64,000 nucleotides of DNA from Acidobacteriota bacterium (GTDB lineage: Bacteria; Acidobacteriota; Thermoanaerobaculia; Multivoradales; Multivoraceae): positions 1 to 64,000 of the forward strand of contig QQVD01000050.1 in NCBI GenBank assembly GCA_003388555.1, in the 5' to 3' direction. Shown here one piece after another: positions 41,629 to 50,116 of this stretch (positions within the stretch are counted from its first letter, which is position 1; every line of letters begins with the position of its first letter). The notes beneath the pieces were generated by a model, which saw only the letters and a list, made by a program, of their open reading frames with translations, did not search any database and was not told the origin of the DNA. Position numbers and translations under genes: made by a program.

Positions 41629-42672
41629 TCATGTCGCCGTCGGCTCCATGCGGCGCTCGGCGTGCAGCTCGAGCAGCTTGTCGACCAGGGCCGAGATACC
41701 GAAACGCACCGGGTCGCAGGCGGGCAGCGCGAAGGCCGCGCGGGTGTCCTCGAGCAGAGTGGCGGCGCGCTGGTCGTCGAGCTTCGAGGTGTTGATCGAG
41801 AAGCCGGCGCAACGTACCTCGGGGTTGGTGAGCCGGGCGTGGCTCAGGTTACTCACCATCGTCTCGTCGAGCGACGGCAGCGGAAAGCCTGGCGCATGGC
41901 GCATGTGGGCTCTGGTCGGCTCGTGGCAGATCACCAGGTAGTCGGGCTGGGCGCCGTGCAGCAGGCCGAGCGAGACGCCGGCGTAGGCGGGATGGTGCAG
42001 CGAGCCCTGACCCTCGACGATCTGCCAGACGTCCGCCGCAGTCGCCGGGGTGAGCTGCTCGACGGTGCCGGAAATGAAGTCCGAGACCACGGCGTCGACC
42101 GGGGCGCCGTCGCCGGCGATCAGGATGCCGGTCTGGCCGGTGGCGCGGAAGCGGGCGTCGACGCCACGCTGCCGAAGGCCCTCGGTGAGCGCCAGGGCGG
42201 TGTACATCTTGCCGAGGTTGCAGTCGGTGCCGACGGTGAGCACGCGCACGCCTTCGCGCCGCGTTCCCTTGCCCACCGGCGGCGGCGGGCCGGGGTCGCG
42301 CAGGTCGACCAGCCGCACTCCTGCCTCTCGTGCCGCATCGGCCAGCTCGGGAATCGAGGTCAGCCGGCGGTGCAGGCCGTTGGCGACGTCGAGCCCGGCC
42401 CGCGCCGCGGCGCACAGCGCGTCGATCCAGGCGTCGGGCAGGGTGCCGCCGGGGCTGACCGTGCCGAGCACCAGAGTCCGAGCTCCCCGCTCCGCCGCCT
42501 CTTCCGGGGTCAGGTCAGGCAGTCCGAGCGACTCGGCGTCGGCGGAGAGGCGGAGCTGGCCGACGCAGAGGTCGGGGCGCCAGTGGTGCACGCCGCGCGC
42601 GGTCTTGATGTCGAGCGGATCGCGGGCGTCGCCGAGGAAGAGCAGGTAGGGTGTGCGGAGGGCGTCACGCAT
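41629..42672 (-). CDS. dgcN: DUF1611-family D-glutamate N-acetyltransferase
   Basis: 347 aa. P-loop-like C-terminal domain VGTDCNLGKMYTALAL (about 147-162), then VVSDFISGTVEQL and QGSLHHPAYAGVSLGLLHGAQPDYLVICHEP, characteristic of DUF1611/DgcN. In marine bacteria DgcN acetylates D-glutamate with acetyl-CoA so that DgcA can racemise it. TACGAT ends six bases before the ATG and no Shine-Dalgarno is seen, predicting a leaderless mRNA. Confidence 0.88.
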   Translation of the reverse strand: MRDALRTPYLLFLGDARDPLDIKTARGVHHWRPDLCVGQLRLSADAESLGLPDLTPEEAAERGARTLVLGTVSPGGTLPDAWIDALCAAARAGLDVANGLHRRLTSIPELADAAREAGVRLVDLRDPGPPPPVGKGTRREGVRVLTVGTDCNLGKMYTALALTEGLRQRGVDARFRATGQTGILIAGDGAPVDAVVSDFISGTVEQLTPATAADVWQIVEGQGSLHHPAYAGVSLGLLHGAQPDYLVICHEPTRAHMRHAPGFPLPSLDETMVSNLSHARLTNPEVRCAGFSINTSKLDDQRAATLLEDTRAAFALPACDPVRFGISALVDKLLELHAERRMEPTAT

Positions 42673-43585: not shown

Positions 43586-45988
43586 CTACTCGGCTGCGGA
43601 AGCGGCCGGCGCCTCGTACGGGAAGAAGGCCTCGAGGATGTCGTCGTGCTGGCCGCGCCAGCCGCCCCAGTTGGGGCTGTATTCGGTCACCAGCACCTCG
43701 GTCTCGATGCCGGCCTCGCGCAGCCGCGAGATGAGGTCCTTGCTGGCGTCGTCGGCGTCGATGCCGTTGGGCAGGTCGTAGTCGCGGTTGCTGTAGACGA
43801 CGAAGGCACGGCTCGGTTTCGCGGCGTCCGAGGCCAACGCCGCCTCGATGCGCTCGCGCACCGGATCGATGTGGTAGTAGCTCTGCACCGCGAAGCGGGA
43901 GAAGAGGCCCGGGTGGCTCAGGGCGGCGTACGCCGAGGCGACGCCCGCCGATCCCGGTCCCAGGATCGCGTGTCCCGAGGACTCCACCCGGTAGTGACGG
44001 CGCAGGTGGGGCAGCAGCTCGTCGACCAGGAAGCGGTTGTAGGCGTCGGCCTGCTCGCCGCCGTACTCGGCCGGCTGCACCCGCGGCACGAAGACCGCGA
44101 CCAGCGGCGCCACCGACCTGCCGACCAGGTTGTCGAGAGTGCGGGTCATCAGGCTGCCGCGCACCTGGTTGTCGCCGTGGTTGACCACCAGCAGGGGATA
44201 GGTGCGGGACGGGTCGGCGTCGTAGTCGGCCGGCCGCCAGAGCTGGATCTGTCGCGTGTTGCCGAGCGCCACCGAACGGAACTGGAAGGCGTCCAGGGTG
44301 CCGCGCGGGGCGTCGGCCGCCGGCTCGTCGAGGTGCGGCGCCGGCGGCAGCTCGGGCATGCGCAGGTCGGAGGAGATCTGGAAGCCCTCGTTGGTCGAGT
44401 AGGGATTCTCGGGATCGACCGCCGGCGGCGCGAAGTCGACCGAGAAGCCGTAGTTGTACTGTCCGGCCGGTTCGAGCTGCAGGGTGTGGAAGAAGAGATC
44501 GGTGCCGGCGACCCTCTCCAGGGTCACCTCCTGGTTGGCGACCGGGTCGCCGGCGAGGCCGACGTCGTCCGCGTCGCCGCGCCATACGAAGTGCACCAGG
44601 CTGCGGTCGTCGCCGCCGAAGTCGCTCTCGAACAGCGGCGTGCGCTCGAGCTCTCCGAAGCGCTCGTCGACGGCGGCCTGCCGCTGCCCCTCGGGCAGGC
44701 GCTCGACCGAGGCCAGCCACTCGCCGAAGCGGCCACGCAGGCGCTCGGTGACCTCGGTGGGGCCGACCCGCGGGCGCAGGTCCGCGTCGGGGACGACCGA
44801 GGCGATGCCGTCGAGGCTGCGGACCACGAAGGCGTCGCCGACGCAGCTCGGGAAGTGGGTGCTGGCGCTGTCGAGCGCCGCGACCCGCGCCACCTCGCGG
44901 TAGCCCTCGGGAGAGGCGTCGGCGAGCACCAGCTCGCCCTCGGGCGAGATGATCGCCAGCGCGTCGCCGACCCGCATCAGGCCCTGGCCGCCGGGCTCGC
45001 GCGAGCGCCAGACGATCTCGCCGGAGTCCACCGCGACGCAGGTCAGGATGCCGCGTGTGAAGCCGTAGAAGTGGTCACCGACCCGCACCGGGATGGCCAG
45101 CGAGTTGGCGAAGGCGCGCCCGCTCCACACCTCCTCGACCGAGTCCGCGTCGGCACGGTAAAGCGTCGCGCCGCGGCCGAAGTTGACCAGGAAGCGCCCC
45201 TCGTCGGCCGGCACGACGTGGGCGGACTCCTCGGTCTGGTTGCCCTCGGTGTGCTGGAGGCGCCAGAGCGACTCGCCGGTCTCGGGATCGAGCCCCTCGA
45301 GGTGCTGGTTGCTGACCACCACGAGGACCTCGCGGCCGGCGAGGCGCAGCAGGCTCGGGGTCTGGTAGAAGATCGTCCCGCTGCCGCCGCGCCACTTCGG
45401 CTCCCCGGTGTAGCGGTCCAGCGCGGTCACCGCGCCGCCCTCGCCGCCGGTCGCCACGAGCACCGAGTCGCCGTGGATCACCGCCGAGGTCGTGTAGCCG
45501 TAGAACGGCAGGGTCGAGTTGTCGCCGTCGAGCTCGTAGATCCAGCGGCGTTCGCCGGTCTGTTCGTCGAGCGCCAGCACCTGACCGTGGGGCGCGACGA
45601 CGTAGACGGTGCCGCGGTCGACCACCGGCGTGCTGAGAGGCCCGTCGTCGGATCCGTCGTGCCCGGCGTACTTCTCGCCGAGTGTGTATCGCCACAACTC
45701 CTCGCCGCTGTCGGCGTCGAGAGCGGCGACGACGTCGACCTCACCGTCGGTGAAGGCGGTGAACAGGCGGCCGTCGGCGCCCGAGATCCCCGAATAGCCG
45801 GAGCCGATCTCGCGCTGCCACTCGAGGCGCAGGCCGAAGCCTTCGCCGGGCAGCAGATCGCCGCTGCCCTCACCGCTCGCCTCGGGACCGCGGAAGCGCG
45901 ACCAGAGGCGCTCGCCATCGGGCGTCGGGGTGGCGGCGGCGAGAGGAGCAGCGAGAAGGAGCAGGGCGGAGAGCAGGGCCTTGGACAC
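43586..45988 (-). CDS. PQQ-like beta-propeller fused to esterase D-like domain
   Basis: 800 aa from a GTG at 45988 with a near-perfect GGAGGTGATT site eight bases upstream. Signal peptide (1-17), propeller (about 20-430; GEELWRY, GERRWIY, GEPKWRG, GESLWRL, GEIVWRS), E-set/CBM48-like domain (about 440-540; LVHFVWRGDADDVGLAGD), and a C-terminal alpha/beta hydrolase of the Fes/esterase D type (about 550-795). At the nucleophile elbow the expected G-x-S-x-G reads GPGSAG, so the Ser is shifted one position or absent from its normal place. Whether the enzyme is active is doubtful. Secreted; substrate unknown. Confidence 0.85.
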   Translation of the reverse strand: MSKALLSALLLLAAPLAAATPTPDGERLWSRFRGPEASGEGSGDLLPGEGFGLRLEWQREIGSGYSGISGADGRLFTAFTDGEVDVVAALDADSGEELWRYTLGEKYAGHDGSDDGPLSTPVVDRGTVYVVAPHGQVLALDEQTGERRWIYELDGDNSTLPFYGYTTSAVIHGDSVLVATGGEGGAVTALDRYTGEPKWRGGSGTIFYQTPSLLRLAGREVLVVVSNQHLEGLDPETGESLWRLQHTEGNQTEESAHVVPADEGRFLVNFGRGATLYRADADSVEEVWSGRAFANSLAIPVRVGDHFYGFTRGILTCVAVDSGEIVWRSREPGGQGLMRVGDALAIISPEGELVLADASPEGYREVARVAALDSASTHFPSCVGDAFVVRSLDGIASVVPDADLRPRVGPTEVTERLRGRFGEWLASVERLPEGQRQAAVDERFGELERTPLFESDFGGDDRSLVHFVWRGDADDVGLAGDPVANQEVTLERVAGTDLFFHTLQLEPAGQYNYGFSVDFAPPAVDPENPYSTNEGFQISSDLRMPELPPAPHLDEPAADAPRGTLDAFQFRSVALGNTRQIQLWRPADYDADPSRTYPLLVVNHGDNQVRGSLMTRTLDNLVGRSVAPLVAVFVPRVQPAEYGGEQADAYNRFLVDELLPHLRRHYRVESSGHAILGPGSAGVASAYAALSHPGLFSRFAVQSYYHIDPVRERIEAALASDAAKPSRAFVVYSNRDYDLPNGIDADDASKDLISRLREAGIETEVLVTEYSPNWGGWRGQHDDILEAFFPYEAPAASAAE

Positions 45989-46080
45989 GAGAATCACCTC
46001 CACGACACGTGATGGGTCAGCCAGTAGGAACGGGCGCCGGCTTCCAGGGTTGCAGCGCGGCGACGCCTGGACCGGGTCGG

Positions 46081-47010
46081 CTACGCCACCTTGCGCAGCC
46101 ACAGGCTGGACGCGGGCGTCGGATCCGGGCGGAAGGCGCTGGCGAACCAGTCGGGCCTCAGATGCTGCAGGTACGAGAGGAAGATCTCGACCCGGAAGGC
46201 CCGGTTGTAGGACAGGAAGGCGCGCAGCGCGTACGCCTCGTTCCACTGGAATCCCCGCTCGAACCACGATCGCGGGTAGTCGAACGGCCAGAAGACGTCG
46301 TGGAAGTGGATCCAGACGCCGGCACGCAGTCGCGGCAGGATCTCGAACAGGGTCCAGTTCAGATCGCTCGCCACCCTCAACACGTGGGAGCCGTCGAGGA
46401 AGAGGAAGTCTCCATCCTCCAGCGCCTCGAGCTCGCCGAGGGGCACGTTCTCGATGCGCTCGACGAGGAGGCGGTAGCGGGCGTGATCGGCCGGCCTCGA
46501 GAGCGCTTCGAGGCGCTCGGGGAACGGTTCGACGAAGGTCATCTCGGTGGTGAGATCGAAGCGATCGGCGCTGTCGAGAAGCATGGCCGACGAGAAGCCC
46601 GAGCCGACCTCGACGACTCGGCGCGGGCGTTCGCGATGCAGCATGTAGGCGAACAGGGCGGCGTCGGCGGCTCCGAACCAGCCGTTGGCGGCCCGATAGC
46701 GCCCACCTGCCGAGAAGAGCAGCTCTTCGCCGTGGAGCTCGACGAACCCACCGAGGTCGTCGAGCAGGCCCTCGTGGCCCTCGCGGGAGACCGGTAGCAC
46801 CGCGGGCTCCGGTGCCGCGATCGCGGAGGCAGGGGCGTCGGACGCCCCGTCGAGGTGGCGCAGATCGACCAGTGGCGAGGAGTAGTGTCCCGGCAGATGC
46901 TTCTGGGGGCTGTACCGGTCGGCTCTGGCGAAGTCGATCGCGCGCAGCGTCCGGTCGCCTCCCGGAAGCAGGCTGAGCAGCCGGCGTAGGGCGCGGCGAG
47001 CGACTGCCAC
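46081..47010 (-). CDS. Class I SAM-dependent methyltransferase (Methyltransf_24 type)
   Basis: 309 aa from a GTG with GGGAG eight bases before. SAM motif I VVEVGSGFSS (about 132-141), acidic motif TFVEPFP, LFLDGSHV and WIHFHDVFWPFDYP, the classic pattern of Methyltransf_24 enzymes. The first 120 residues are a distinct, mostly polar extension. Third gene of an operon with a MauG-type peroxidase and an NHL/c-type protein; 14 bases after the peroxidase. Acceptor unknown. Confidence 0.85.
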   Translation of the reverse strand: MAVARRALRRLLSLLPGGDRTLRAIDFARADRYSPQKHLPGHYSSPLVDLRHLDGASDAPASAIAAPEPAVLPVSREGHEGLLDDLGGFVELHGEELLFSAGGRYRAANGWFGAADAALFAYMLHRERPRRVVEVGSGFSSAMLLDSADRFDLTTEMTFVEPFPERLEALSRPADHARYRLLVERIENVPLGELEALEDGDFLFLDGSHVLRVASDLNWTLFEILPRLRAGVWIHFHDVFWPFDYPRSWFERGFQWNEAYALRAFLSYNRAFRVEIFLSYLQHLRPDWFASAFRPDPTPASSLWLRKVA

Positions 47011-47024
47011 GGCGCGACTCCCGG

Positions 47025-48380
47025 CTACTCGTCGAAGTGGATCAGGTAGTAGCGGAAACGCTCCGCACCGACGTCGTCGAGCTGGCGCAGGAAGGCCGCC
47101 AGGGGTGCGACGTCGGCGTCGTCGAGCTGGATCTCGGCGACGATCGGGTCGGCGTGGGCCAGCTGGCCGGCGCGAGCCCGCTGGGCAGCGAGGATCTTGG
47201 CCCGTACCGCGTCCTCGAGAGTGGCGTACGCGCCGTTGTGCATGTAGGGGCCGGTGCCGGCGAGGCCCCGCAGAGCCGGAGTCTTGAAGGCGCCGTGGGC
47301 GCCGGGCTCGCCCTGGGCCACGTGCAGCCGCCCGAGGTCGATCGCCGCCGCATCGTCGCGCGTCGGGCGGCCCCGGCGCACCGTCGCGGGATCGAGCCGA
47401 TCGGCGGCGCCGGCGCCCCACAACGCGTCGTACTCGAGCTCGGCGATGCCGACGTTGCGGAAGCGGCCGTCGCGGAAGTCGGGCGGCGTGTGGCACCGCA
47501 CGCACTGTCCGACGCCGGCTTCCGGGTCGAGCTGGTCGGGCAGGGTGCGGAAGAAGATCTTGAACCCCTCGTAGGCCTGCTCGTCGAAGCCCTCGGGCCG
47601 CTTGACCAGCCGTCGGCCCTCCTGATTGCCGATCCGGCTCTCGAGGAAGAAGGAGTAGTCCTGCGCCGACTGACCCTCGTTGGGTCCGGTGCGCAGGCGG
47701 TTCTGCTCGGCGAAGGCGTCCCAGCGCGAGGTGTGGCTCGAGGTCAGCGTCTCGAGGTAGGCGGCGAGCGCTTTCGCCGCCGCCTGACCGGCCTGCTCGG
47801 GCGTCGCCTCGGCGACGTCGATGCCGAAGGCCTGCTGGAAACGCTCGGCGTAGGGCGCTCCCTCGGCCGGGGCCTCGGAGGCGAGCGTGACCTGGATGGC
47901 GGAGAGGGCGCGCGCCCGCTCGGCGTCGCCCTCGCCCCAACCGGCCATCGCGCCGCTCAGCTTGGCGACCAGCAGCTCCTCGAGGCTCTCGGCCGAGCCG
48001 TCCCAGTTGCCGCGCCAGCCACCGTCGCCGCCCGATCCCTGCCAGCGCCAGCTCGCCGCCTCGACCAGCGTCGGCGTGTTGCGCAGGGTGGTCTGCTTGC
48101 CGGGCAGCAGGCTGAGCGGCACCGAGTCGGCGAAGGCGCGGTCGGCGCGGTCGGCGGAACGGCTGCCGTCGACGTGGCACTCACCACAGCTGGAGCCGTA
48201 GTCGAGGCCGGGGTTGGTGACGTTGCGTTCGCTGAACAGCGCCGCCCCCAGCCGCGCCGCGGGCGAGAGCTCGGGCTCCTCGCCGCTCTGTGCCGCGACG
48301 GGGGCCGCAGAAACGAACGCGACGACCGCCAGCACGGCGATCGTCGCGTCGAGGCGGCCCGTGTGGCCCTTGGCCGTCAC
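47025..48380 (-). CDS. Di-heme cytochrome c peroxidase / MauG-type protein
   Basis: 451 aa; GTG start overlaps the preceding stop (GTGA at 48377-48380). Signal peptide (about 12-31). Two heme c sites: CGECH (Cys65, Cys68, His69) and CVRCH (Cys293, Cys296, His297). Conserved MauG-type flanks include SLLPGKQTTLRNTPTL and KTPALRGLAGTGPYMHNGAYATLEDAV. It reduces hydrogen peroxide or oxidises a protein cofactor in the periplasm. The coupling to an NHL/CxxCH protein suggests that protein may be electron donor or substrate. Confidence 0.92.
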   Translation of the reverse strand: MTAKGHTGRLDATIAVLAVVAFVSAAPVAAQSGEEPELSPAARLGAALFSERNVTNPGLDYGSSCGECHVDGSRSADRADRAFADSVPLSLLPGKQTTLRNTPTLVEAASWRWQGSGGDGGWRGNWDGSAESLEELLVAKLSGAMAGWGEGDAERARALSAIQVTLASEAPAEGAPYAERFQQAFGIDVAEATPEQAGQAAAKALAAYLETLTSSHTSRWDAFAEQNRLRTGPNEGQSAQDYSFFLESRIGNQEGRRLVKRPEGFDEQAYEGFKIFFRTLPDQLDPEAGVGQCVRCHTPPDFRDGRFRNVGIAELEYDALWGAGAADRLDPATVRRGRPTRDDAAAIDLGRLHVAQGEPGAHGAFKTPALRGLAGTGPYMHNGAYATLEDAVRAKILAAQRARAGQLAHADPIVAEIQLDDADVAPLAAFLRQLDDVGAERFRYYLIHFDE

Positions 48381-50116
48381 GTGCCGGGTACGAGCTGGAT
48401 CACCGAACCCGAGTGGTTCTCGACGTGGCGCACCGGGTAGTTCGAGTTGACCGTCCAGACGTTGCCTTCGTCGTCGAACTCGATCTCGCGGGTGTAGGTG
48501 ACCCGCGTCGGCATGCGGTACTCGGTGAAGGTCTCGGTCTCTGGGTCGAAGCGCACCATCGAGTCGGTGCCGGTGCCGCAGATCCACACGTGGCCGCTCT
48601 TGGGCTCGATGTGCAGCGCGTAGGGCAGCGCGTCGGGGCCTTTGGGCAGCGGATAGACCTTCCACTCCTCGGTCGCGGGGTCGAAGCGGGCGATGTCGCC
48701 GCTGGCCCAGCCGGGCACCCAGACCATGCCGTCCGGCGCCACGTGCAGGCGTCGCGGTCCGTGCACCGGCGGGATCCACTCGACGATCTTGTCGGGGTGG
48801 TCGTCGGCCAGCTCGGGGGCGACACGGCCGACCCGCTGGCCGTTCAGCTTGCTGTACCAGACGTGTCCGTTCGGCGCGATGTCGATGCCGTACGGCGTCA
48901 CGCCGCGCGACTCGCCGCGGGCGCCGCCGCCGCGCACCTGGTCCTTGTCGGGCAGCTTGAAGTACTTGACGTCATAGCGCTCGTTCTCGGCGTCGTAGGT
49001 CGACGGATCGAGCGAGTAGACGCCGAGAGCGGCGTCGGTCCACCAGACGATCCCCTTCTGGTCGATGCGCAGCGTGTGGGGGTAGCCGGAGCGCGGCCGC
49101 GGCGCGACGTTGCCGGAGACGACCTGCCAGGTCTTCTCGTCGACGTCGAACTTGGCCATCTGGCCCGACAGGGCGAGGGTGACCCACATGTCGCCGTTGG
49201 CGTCGCGCTCGATCGAGTGCGGGCCCTTGATCGGCGGATCGGTGGAGTCGTACGCCTTGCCGCCGGGGATGGAGTAGACGTTGCGCTCGCCGGTGCGCGG
49301 ATCGAGGGTCTCGATCGCGTCGGAGATCATGTCGACGGTGTAGACGACGCCGTCGGCGCCGAGCTCGAGGTCGTGGATCATGGCGTCGTCTTCCTTGCCC
49401 ATGTTCCACTGACGGATCGTGGCGGCGAGCGCGTCGCCCTCCGGTGGCGGCGGCGGCTCGTAGGCCGGCCACTGCTTCTCGGCGTCGCGGCCGTAGACCG
49501 CGACCACCTTGTCGACCAGGCTCTTCTGGATGTGGTCGTAGAGGCCCTGGAAGCCGTCCATACGGGTCAGCATGACCTCCCAGTCGACCGGCTCCTCGGG
49601 GGAGCGGAAACCGAGCGTTCCGACCTGGTGGCAGTAGGCGCACATCATCTTGAAGTTCAGCGCGTCCGCCTCGTCCTCCCACTTCAGCAGGCTCATCAGC
49701 TCGTGGCCGCGGCGCTGCCACTGCAGGTCGAGCCCGGTGGCCGGGGTCAACGAGAAGTCGGCGCTCGCCCCGCCGGCGGCGACCTCGACGGTCTGACGCT
49801 CGTCCTCGAGCCCGAGCAGGCGCGCCCGCACGTGCCAGGTGCCCGGGCTCAGCTCGGGCAGGCGGTAGCTGCCGTCGACCTGGGTCGACACCGAGACGTT
49901 GCGCAGCTCGTCCTCGCTGAAGGCGGTGACGGTGACGCCGCGCAGGGCTTTGCCGTCGGCGTCGGTCACCTTGCCGGTGATGCTGCCCGCGGCGACATCG
50001 ACCGCGGCATTGACCGCTGCATTGTTGGCGGCGAGGCCGGCGCCAGCGGCGAGGACAGCCAGGCAGGTCAGGGCCACGGCGAGGGAGCGCGGAATCCGTG
50101 GGGATCTCGAGGTCAT
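48377..50116 (-). CDS. Secreted carboxypeptidase-regulatory-like / c-type heme / NHL beta-propeller protein
   Basis: 579 aa from the ATG at 50116 with a GGGAGG site. Signal peptide (about 1-30). Domain order: CarboxypepD_reg-like (about 45-125; GSITGKVTDADGKALRGVTV), a single heme c site CAYCH (Cys159, Cys162, His163), and an NHL/virginiamycin-B-lyase-like propeller (about 230-575; GPHSIERDANGDMWVTLA, GVTPYGIDIAPNGHVWYSK, HVAPDGMVWVPGWASGDIARFDP). No lyase residues confirmed. Translationally coupled to the di-heme peroxidase, hence likely a redox partner or scaffold. TATACT at 50179-50184 (minus) is a good -10. Confidence 0.88.
   Translation of the reverse strand: MTSRSPRIPRSLAVALTCLAVLAAGAGLAANNAAVNAAVDVAAGSITGKVTDADGKALRGVTVTAFSEDELRNVSVSTQVDGSYRLPELSPGTWHVRARLLGLEDERQTVEVAAGGASADFSLTPATGLDLQWQRRGHELMSLLKWEDEADALNFKMMCAYCHQVGTLGFRSPEEPVDWEVMLTRMDGFQGLYDHIQKSLVDKVVAVYGRDAEKQWPAYEPPPPPEGDALAATIRQWNMGKEDDAMIHDLELGADGVVYTVDMISDAIETLDPRTGERNVYSIPGGKAYDSTDPPIKGPHSIERDANGDMWVTLALSGQMAKFDVDEKTWQVVSGNVAPRPRSGYPHTLRIDQKGIVWWTDAALGVYSLDPSTYDAENERYDVKYFKLPDKDQVRGGGARGESRGVTPYGIDIAPNGHVWYSKLNGQRVGRVAPELADDHPDKIVEWIPPVHGPRRLHVAPDGMVWVPGWASGDIARFDPATEEWKVYPLPKGPDALPYALHIEPKSGHVWICGTGTDSMVRFDPETETFTEYRMPTRVTYTREIEFDDEGNVWTVNSNYPVRHVENHSGSVIQLVPGT

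Follow-up and report, generated by a model that had tools for sequence, protein, structure and literature searches.

Recurrent association of a propeller cytochrome with a divergent diheme CCP_MauG-family protein in four bacterial phyla

Within the superfamily of MauG and the bacterial cytochrome c peroxidases (CCPs), BthA has no equivalent of MauG Trp93 and yet forms a bis-Fe(IV) state, and a variant of it in which His replaces the Tyr ligand remains able to reduce hydrogen peroxide (H2O2) (PMC6405878). The same superfamily includes diheme oxygenases (PMC4496055). In hydrazine synthase and its non-anammox homologues, propellers and a MauG-like diheme subunit are combined in one complex (PMC12607021 and PMC12758564), and in the propeller enzyme virginiamycin B lyase (Vgb) His270 is catalytic, the H270A variant being inactive according to the title of structure 2z2p. 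Here, we analyzed a window of 64,000 nucleotides (the whole stretch of DNA under study, positions 1 to 64,000 of the forward strand of contig QQVD01000050.1, assembly GCA_003388555.1) from an Acidobacteriota bacterium whose genome comprises 6.8 Mb in 74 contigs and is 98.8% complete. It encodes a propeller protein with one heme-binding motif (gene 1), a diheme CCP_MauG-family protein (gene 2), and a methyltransferase (gene 3); genes 1 and 2 are probably secreted, judging by eye from their signal peptides.

A first-pass annotation had described the three genes as a tightly coupled operon, and the arrangement was recovered exactly as it had been drawn, with all three genes on the minus strand, a GTGA overlap joining the TGA stop of gene 1 to the GTG start of gene 2, and a gap of 14 bases (47011-47024) between the stop of gene 2 and the GTG of gene 3. 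The coupling itself stood for genes 1 and 2, which co-occur, adjoin, and are fused across four phyla, whereas gene 3 was not co-conserved and the layout was not kept; the co-conservation of all three genes, set beforehand as the decisive test, thus failed for a three-gene system and held for a two-gene one. At the level of sequence comparison, a coupling of genes 1 and 2 beyond chance is strongly supported by other genomes, in which the two co-occur, lie side by side, or are fused. Among 60 genomes of the window's order, both genes were present in the same 23 (the window's own included, all from genera g1, g2, and g4) and the other 37 had neither, a split that was read after the search from expectation values (E) of at most 9.5e-133 versus 1.8e-34 for gene 1 and of at most 2.3e-41 versus 3.1e-11 for gene 2. 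Genus g3, which belongs to the same family as the window, lacks both genes.

The survey of genome neighborhoods that the first-pass annotation had proposed for the propeller protein was carried out by scanning genome contigs with gene 1, and it revealed a recurrent partner in four phyla, namely the C-terminal domain of gene 2 (hereafter, C-domain). The scan gave 61 loci, with relatives at 46-68% identity in Acidobacteriota, Hydrogenedentota, Planctomycetes, and Verrucomicrobia and distant ones at 27-41% identity in Gemmatimonadetes, a Rhodothermaceae, and one acidobacterium. With genes called in the fetched loci by a crude in-house script, the C-domain was detected in 20 of the 61, either in the same open frame (15), in a neighboring frame (4), or one gene away (1), and the 41 loci without it came mainly from g2 relatives, Hydrogenedentota, and distant relatives or lay on short or truncated contigs. 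Since loci beside gene 1 had served to build the C-domain profile, nine of the 20 counted ones among them, the claim of co-occurrence rests on searches of whole genomes.

In the 29 genomes behind 30 chosen loci, the C-domain was found at E <= 1e-8 in 25; those without it were G064, G084, in which gene 1 is truncated, and G086 and G087, in which gene 1 is a distant relative. After this survey, cut-offs of 1e-20 for the C-domain and 1e-40 for gene 1 were chosen and preset before each group search. In the verrucomicrobial order of locus L084, a larger group represented here by a sample of 189 genomes, gene 1 occurred in 15 and the C-domain in 13, all 13 lying within the 15 and in one frame with gene 1; the two remaining carriers have a gene 1 match that ends at a contig end (G242) or is partial (G170). 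The planctomycete order of locus L098 showed gene 1 in 12 and the C-domain in 13 of 170 genomes, and each of the 12 gene 1 carriers has a C-domain 138-354 bases from gene 1, one of them (G289) bearing two gene 1 copies of which one lies about 4 kb from a C-domain. In Hydrogenedentota, gene 1 and the C-domain were each found in five of 68 genomes, four of them shared (G060, G061, G085, and G489; Fisher 3e-5, a value that ignores relatedness and overstates the association, the genomes within each group being kin). There the two lie on different contigs, so that their co-occurrence is not mere hitch-hiking, although in draft assemblies different contigs are no proof of distance. What had seemed a local operon is a module whose parts stay associated in four bacterial phyla, and natural fusions reveal which of them belong together. 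Examples of such fusions are a protein of 1159 amino acids at L099 and a heme-bearing one at L085.

The first-pass annotation had assigned gene 1 a carboxypeptidase-regulatory-like domain, one CxxCH, and an NHL propeller. The domain order was confirmed by Pfam (CarboxypepD_reg, one CxxCH at residue 159, propeller), and the type of propeller was revised: at E <= 0.01, no NHL family was listed for gene 1, and the virginiamycin B lyase family PF24684 was listed instead, with 61.6 bits above a cut-off of 50. The AlphaFold2 model of gene 1 was of good quality (mean predicted local distance difference test, pLDDT, 86.8; predicted template modeling score 0.86), and its propeller matched virginiamycin/streptogramin B lyases at Z 34.7-35.6 with root-mean-square deviations (rmsd) of 1.9-2.0 over 290-295 residues, the best match reaching Z 35.6 and rmsd 1.9 over 295 residues, while the next-ranked, unrelated propellers fell to a Z of about 30. 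The position of Vgb His270 is occupied by Arg543 and that of the active-site residue His228 by Tyr499, both identical in 37 of 37 aligned relatives; hence gene 1, as modeled and aligned, is a Vgb fold that lacks the Vgb active site and has a conserved pocket of its own. Scores against the Vgb(A) and Vgb(B) equivalogs were 44.9 and 42.8 bits versus a cut-off of 600. The heme motif is likewise kept in all 37 relatives, and several aromatic residues (W179, W311, W466, W511, W554, Y409, and Y499) are invariant. A second gene 1 relative of the g4 genome (locus L039, G003 contig C527) was observed near a pyrroloquinoline quinone (PQQ) alcohol-dehydrogenase-type gene and a MoCoBD_2 gene.

The form of the partner differs among lineages. 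The full two-heme form of gene 2 was seen in the three Hydrogenedentota relatives aligned, whereas the planctomycete and verrucomicrobial partners that were read consist of the C-domain only, without the N-terminal heme half. An NQEGR motif is kept in 21 of 21 C-domain matches of the locus set. A third component, a copper-type domain, recurs with them: its putative type-1 (cupredoxin-like) copper ligands (His, Cys, His, and Met) are found as DP..HN plus CD.HPWM in seven of seven aligned sequences, a label drawn from the motif, as no copper family was listed by Pfam for the representative at L080:11861-12640. Of the 15 fusions, 13 include this domain within their single frame; of the other two, L086 has it in another nearby frame and L088 ends with the contig. 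At L080 the copper-type gene is next after gene 1, at L147:5084-7729 (from the genome of L081) another gene 1 copy is joined straight to the copper-type domain, with no C-domain in the chain, and in Hydrogenedentota the copper-type gene lies directly upstream of gene 2 in all four contexts examined (L143, L144, L145, and L148) out of seven C-domain matches.

Taken together, the shared core is a one-heme propeller protein and a C-terminal electron-transfer half, often with a copper-type domain, and this favors a relay or oxidoreductase complex over a maturation or peroxide-sensing system. We consider the chances about even that the products of genes 1 and 2 act as partners in a secreted redox module with heme-heme-copper electron transfer and a ligand-binding propeller. 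Electrons would pass between the gene 1 heme, the C-domain heme of gene 2, and the copper protein, and the conserved propeller pocket (Tyr499, Arg543, Arg455, Arg456, and His347) could bind a substrate or a partner. The additional N-terminal heme that gene 2 has in acidobacteria and Hydrogenedentota might be the site of the terminal reaction, probably with an oxygen species. Planctomycete and verrucomicrobial partners, which lack that half, would instead be relays or, where the C-domain heme is missing as well, docking parts. A bolder version, which we put forward tentatively and regard as doubtful, is that propeller cytochrome, divergent diheme protein, and copper protein together make up a secreted oxidoreductase not described before. 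Its diheme site would be of a new type, devoid of the acid-base Glu and with Lys or His at the second heme, its Vgb-fold pocket would have an invariant Tyr/Arg pair in place of the catalytic histidines, and its substrate would be unlike that of any characterized MauG-superfamily enzyme. A literature search, conducted mostly without subscription papers, returned no description of an association between genes 1 and 2. If the relay reading is true, half a MauG-type enzyme, sometimes as a heme-less remnant, persists as the partner domain of a propeller cytochrome, and the single-chain fusions make the target that the module oxidizes or reduces directly testable.

Several observations weigh against a redox module of this kind. 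Heme loading, location, electron transfer and its direction, the substrate, and complex formation are features that we infer. The structure model of gene 2 was unusable (mean pLDDT 43.8). CxxCH is absent from six of the 21 C-domains, all in verrucomicrobial fusions (L088, L095, L096, L099, L101, and L107), where the C-domain outlives its heme; a pure relay does not explain these, and they may be docking parts. The operon layout is not kept even within the window's family, since in g4 an aminotransferase gene lies between genes 1 and 2 (gene 2 being cut there by a contig end) and in g2 a distance of 38-51 kb separates the two in each of the 11 genomes where they share a contig. As for the copper protein, the window's genome has a relative that is 47% identical, unlinked and on another contig, and in G003 the copper-type gene was matched only weakly; a copper-type protein is encoded at C9:10621-11244 of G000. 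Single occurrences were also observed: in the planctomycete G290, which has no gene 1 match, the C-domain (C130:18918-19472) is interrupted by an in-frame TAG and is possibly a remnant; the hydrogenedentote G467 has a C-domain without gene 1; for the second gene 1 copies in G082, G314, and G316, no C-domain was listed on the same contig; and G064, a Hydrogenedentota draft and the genome of L082, has ten gene 1 matches and no C-domain found, suggesting either a lineage-specific expansion or a different use.

An alternative that we regard as unlikely takes full-length gene 2 as a diheme peroxidase reducing H2O2 with electrons from the gene 1 heme or the copper protein. Bacterial CCPs accept electrons from small cytochromes and cupredoxins, and gene 2 belongs to the CCP_MauG superfamily, with two CxxCH (residues 65 and 293) and 65.2 bits to PF03150 (CCP_MauG) versus a cut-off of 25.6. 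The residues around the hemes, read from sequence comparison only in an alignment of seven relatives (six for Tyr294, as L064 is cut off by the contig end), depart from MauG. The Trp93 position holds Trp in four, Ala in two, and Leu in one, the Tyr294 position holds Lys in three and His in three, and the NPVEM/Glu113 region is replaced by K[LM].....GW in seven of seven, the exact partner of Glu113 being ambiguous in the alignment. BthA, which lacks the Trp93 equivalent and with a His ligand still reduces H2O2, shows that neither change on its own does away with peroxide chemistry (PMC6405878). Two points stand against the peroxidase, namely the replacement of the NPxEM region with its acid-base Glu and the planctomycete and verrucomicrobial partners that remain with gene 1 without any N-terminal heme half.

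Less probable again is the oxidative maturation suggested by the first-pass annotation, in which gene 2 would be a MauG/MbnH-like maturase that oxidizes aromatic side chains of the gene 1 protein to form a protein-derived cofactor. MauG is the closest match of gene 2 among sequences of solved structures, the invariant Trp and Tyr residues of gene 1 could provide targets, and the set of propeller, MauG-type, and copper-type parts resembles the parts list of methylamine dehydrogenase. Gene 2, on the other hand, scored only 33.9 versus a cut-off of 443.85 for the MauG equivalog TIGR03791 and 60.4 versus 362.85 for MbnH (TIGR04039). The proposal, like that of peroxide sensing, is weakened by the lack of conservation of Trp93, Glu113, and Tyr294 among the relatives, and further by the many partners reduced to the C-terminal half, including the six C-domains devoid of CxxCH.

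Still lower we place the absence of any joint function, with neighboring secreted cytochromes held together by shared ancestry. The counts are indeed non-independent, as they come from related genomes, and the operon is lost in g2 and g4; against this, the association turns up again in four phyla, among them Hydrogenedentota, where the two genes co-occur unlinked (4/5), and it extends to in-frame fusion (13/13), and the distant gene 1 relatives of G086 and G087 stand alone, without a C-domain. Least probable of all is a RoxA- or FadCcp-like diheme oxygenase to which the gene 1 propeller presents a substrate, a role known for the superfamily and hinted at by a weak RoxA-like_Cyt-c match on gene 2 (E 0.0014, 18.6 bits, under the cut-off of 26.7), which spans just the general PYMHNG segment.

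Features of the propeller cytochrome and diheme protein locus, in window coordinates
Feature	Position	Strand	Basis or remark
Gene 1 (P0001), secreted propeller protein, one c-type heme motif	48377..50116	-	579 amino acids; signal peptide by eye
CarboxypepD_reg domain, gene 1 residues 45-121	49754..49984	-	PF13620, 57 bits versus cut-off 32.3
CAYCH heme-binding motif, gene 1 residues 159-163	49628..49642	-	C159, C162, and H163 in 37/37 rows of the alignment
Candidate distal ligand of the gene 1 heme, Met186	49559..49561	-	M in 37/37 aligned rows
Vgb-type propeller, gene 1 about residues 232-579	48380..49423	-	Tyr499/Arg543 at Vgb His228/His270 positions
Gene 2 (P0002), diheme CCP_MauG-family protein	47025..48380	-	451 amino acids; PF03150; signal peptide by eye
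CGECH, the first gene 2 CxxCH (residues 65-69), for the N-terminal heme	48174..48188	-	Motif scan
KLSGAMAGW, gene 2 residues 140-148, region of MauG NPVEM/Glu113	47937..47963	-	K[LM].....GW in 7/7 relatives
C-domain, gene 2 residues 195-451	47028..47798	-	Region that accompanies gene 1 in other phyla
Second CxxCH of gene 2 (CVRCH, residues 293-297)	47490..47504	-	Motif scan
PYMHNG...K segment, gene 2 residues 378-396; Lys395 at MauG Tyr294 position	47194..47249	-	Alignment; the Lys395 position assumes a gap-free stretch between PYMHNG and the ligand position
Gene 3 (P0003), Methyltransf_24 methyltransferase	46081..47010	-	309 amino acids; GTG start

The methyltransferase encoded by gene 3 (PF13578, Methyltransf_24, 49.4 bits versus a cut-off of 26.3) is probably a bystander outside the module, and a three-gene system was rejected: it has matches in 29 of the 60 genomes (its own included), which outside the window gene are only 31-47% identical and do not lie beside the gene 1/gene 2 pair. 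By eye, the relatives inspected lie next to another methyltransferase-like gene at L057 and to a sugar-nucleotide-epimerase-like gene and others at L061, and in G003 the contig ends inside gene 2, so that the next gene is not visible there. A pattern scan gave no promoter and one terminator, counts not above those of shuffled sequence. Some 80 bases beyond the end of gene 3 lies an open frame on the same strand (43586-46003, minus) that unites a PQQ_2 propeller with an esterase domain. In the planctomycete and verrucomicrobial loci, PQQ_2 propellers likewise occur, either fused or nearby, and the neighbors include sulfatases and planctomycete cytochromes. Membership of the PQQ_2-esterase gene in the module was unsupported, as these propellers are just 22-27% identical to that of the window; PQQ_2-type genes and sulfatases are common in planctomycete and verrucomicrobial genomes. 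Farther away, a DUF1611 protein (41629-42672, minus strand) matches NCBIfam DgcN along its full length (326 of 326 positions), and the score of 479.4 bits falls barely short of the cut-off, 480.

Several characterized systems resemble this pair in part. In its list of parts it is like the methylamine utilization (mau) system, in which the propeller of methylamine dehydrogenase (MADH) is combined with MauG and the copper protein amicyanin; it differs in that the propeller protein here bears a heme and gene 2 falls far below the MauG cut-off. Hydrazine synthase shares the pairing of a propeller with a MauG-like diheme protein (PMC12607021 and PMC12758564), whereas its alpha subunit has the propeller before the heme domains (PMC12758564) and gene 1 has it after the heme; no hydrazine synthase chain was among the profile and fold matches listed, the low-confidence model of gene 2 being unusable for a fold search. 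With Vgb, gene 1 has in common the propeller fold and a PF24684 score above the cut-off, and it is set apart by the Arg543/Tyr499 replacement of His270/His228 and by the fusion of the propeller to a CarboxypepD_reg domain and a c-type heme segment. Lastly, gene 2 resembles MauG, MbnH, BthA, and the bacterial cytochrome c peroxidases in its two CxxCH motifs, its PF03150 score, and its PYMHNG segment, and it departs from them in lacking conserved Trp93, Glu113, and Tyr294, with Lys or His at the Tyr294 position, in its fixed association with a propeller cytochrome, and in the existence of many relatives as C-terminal halves only.

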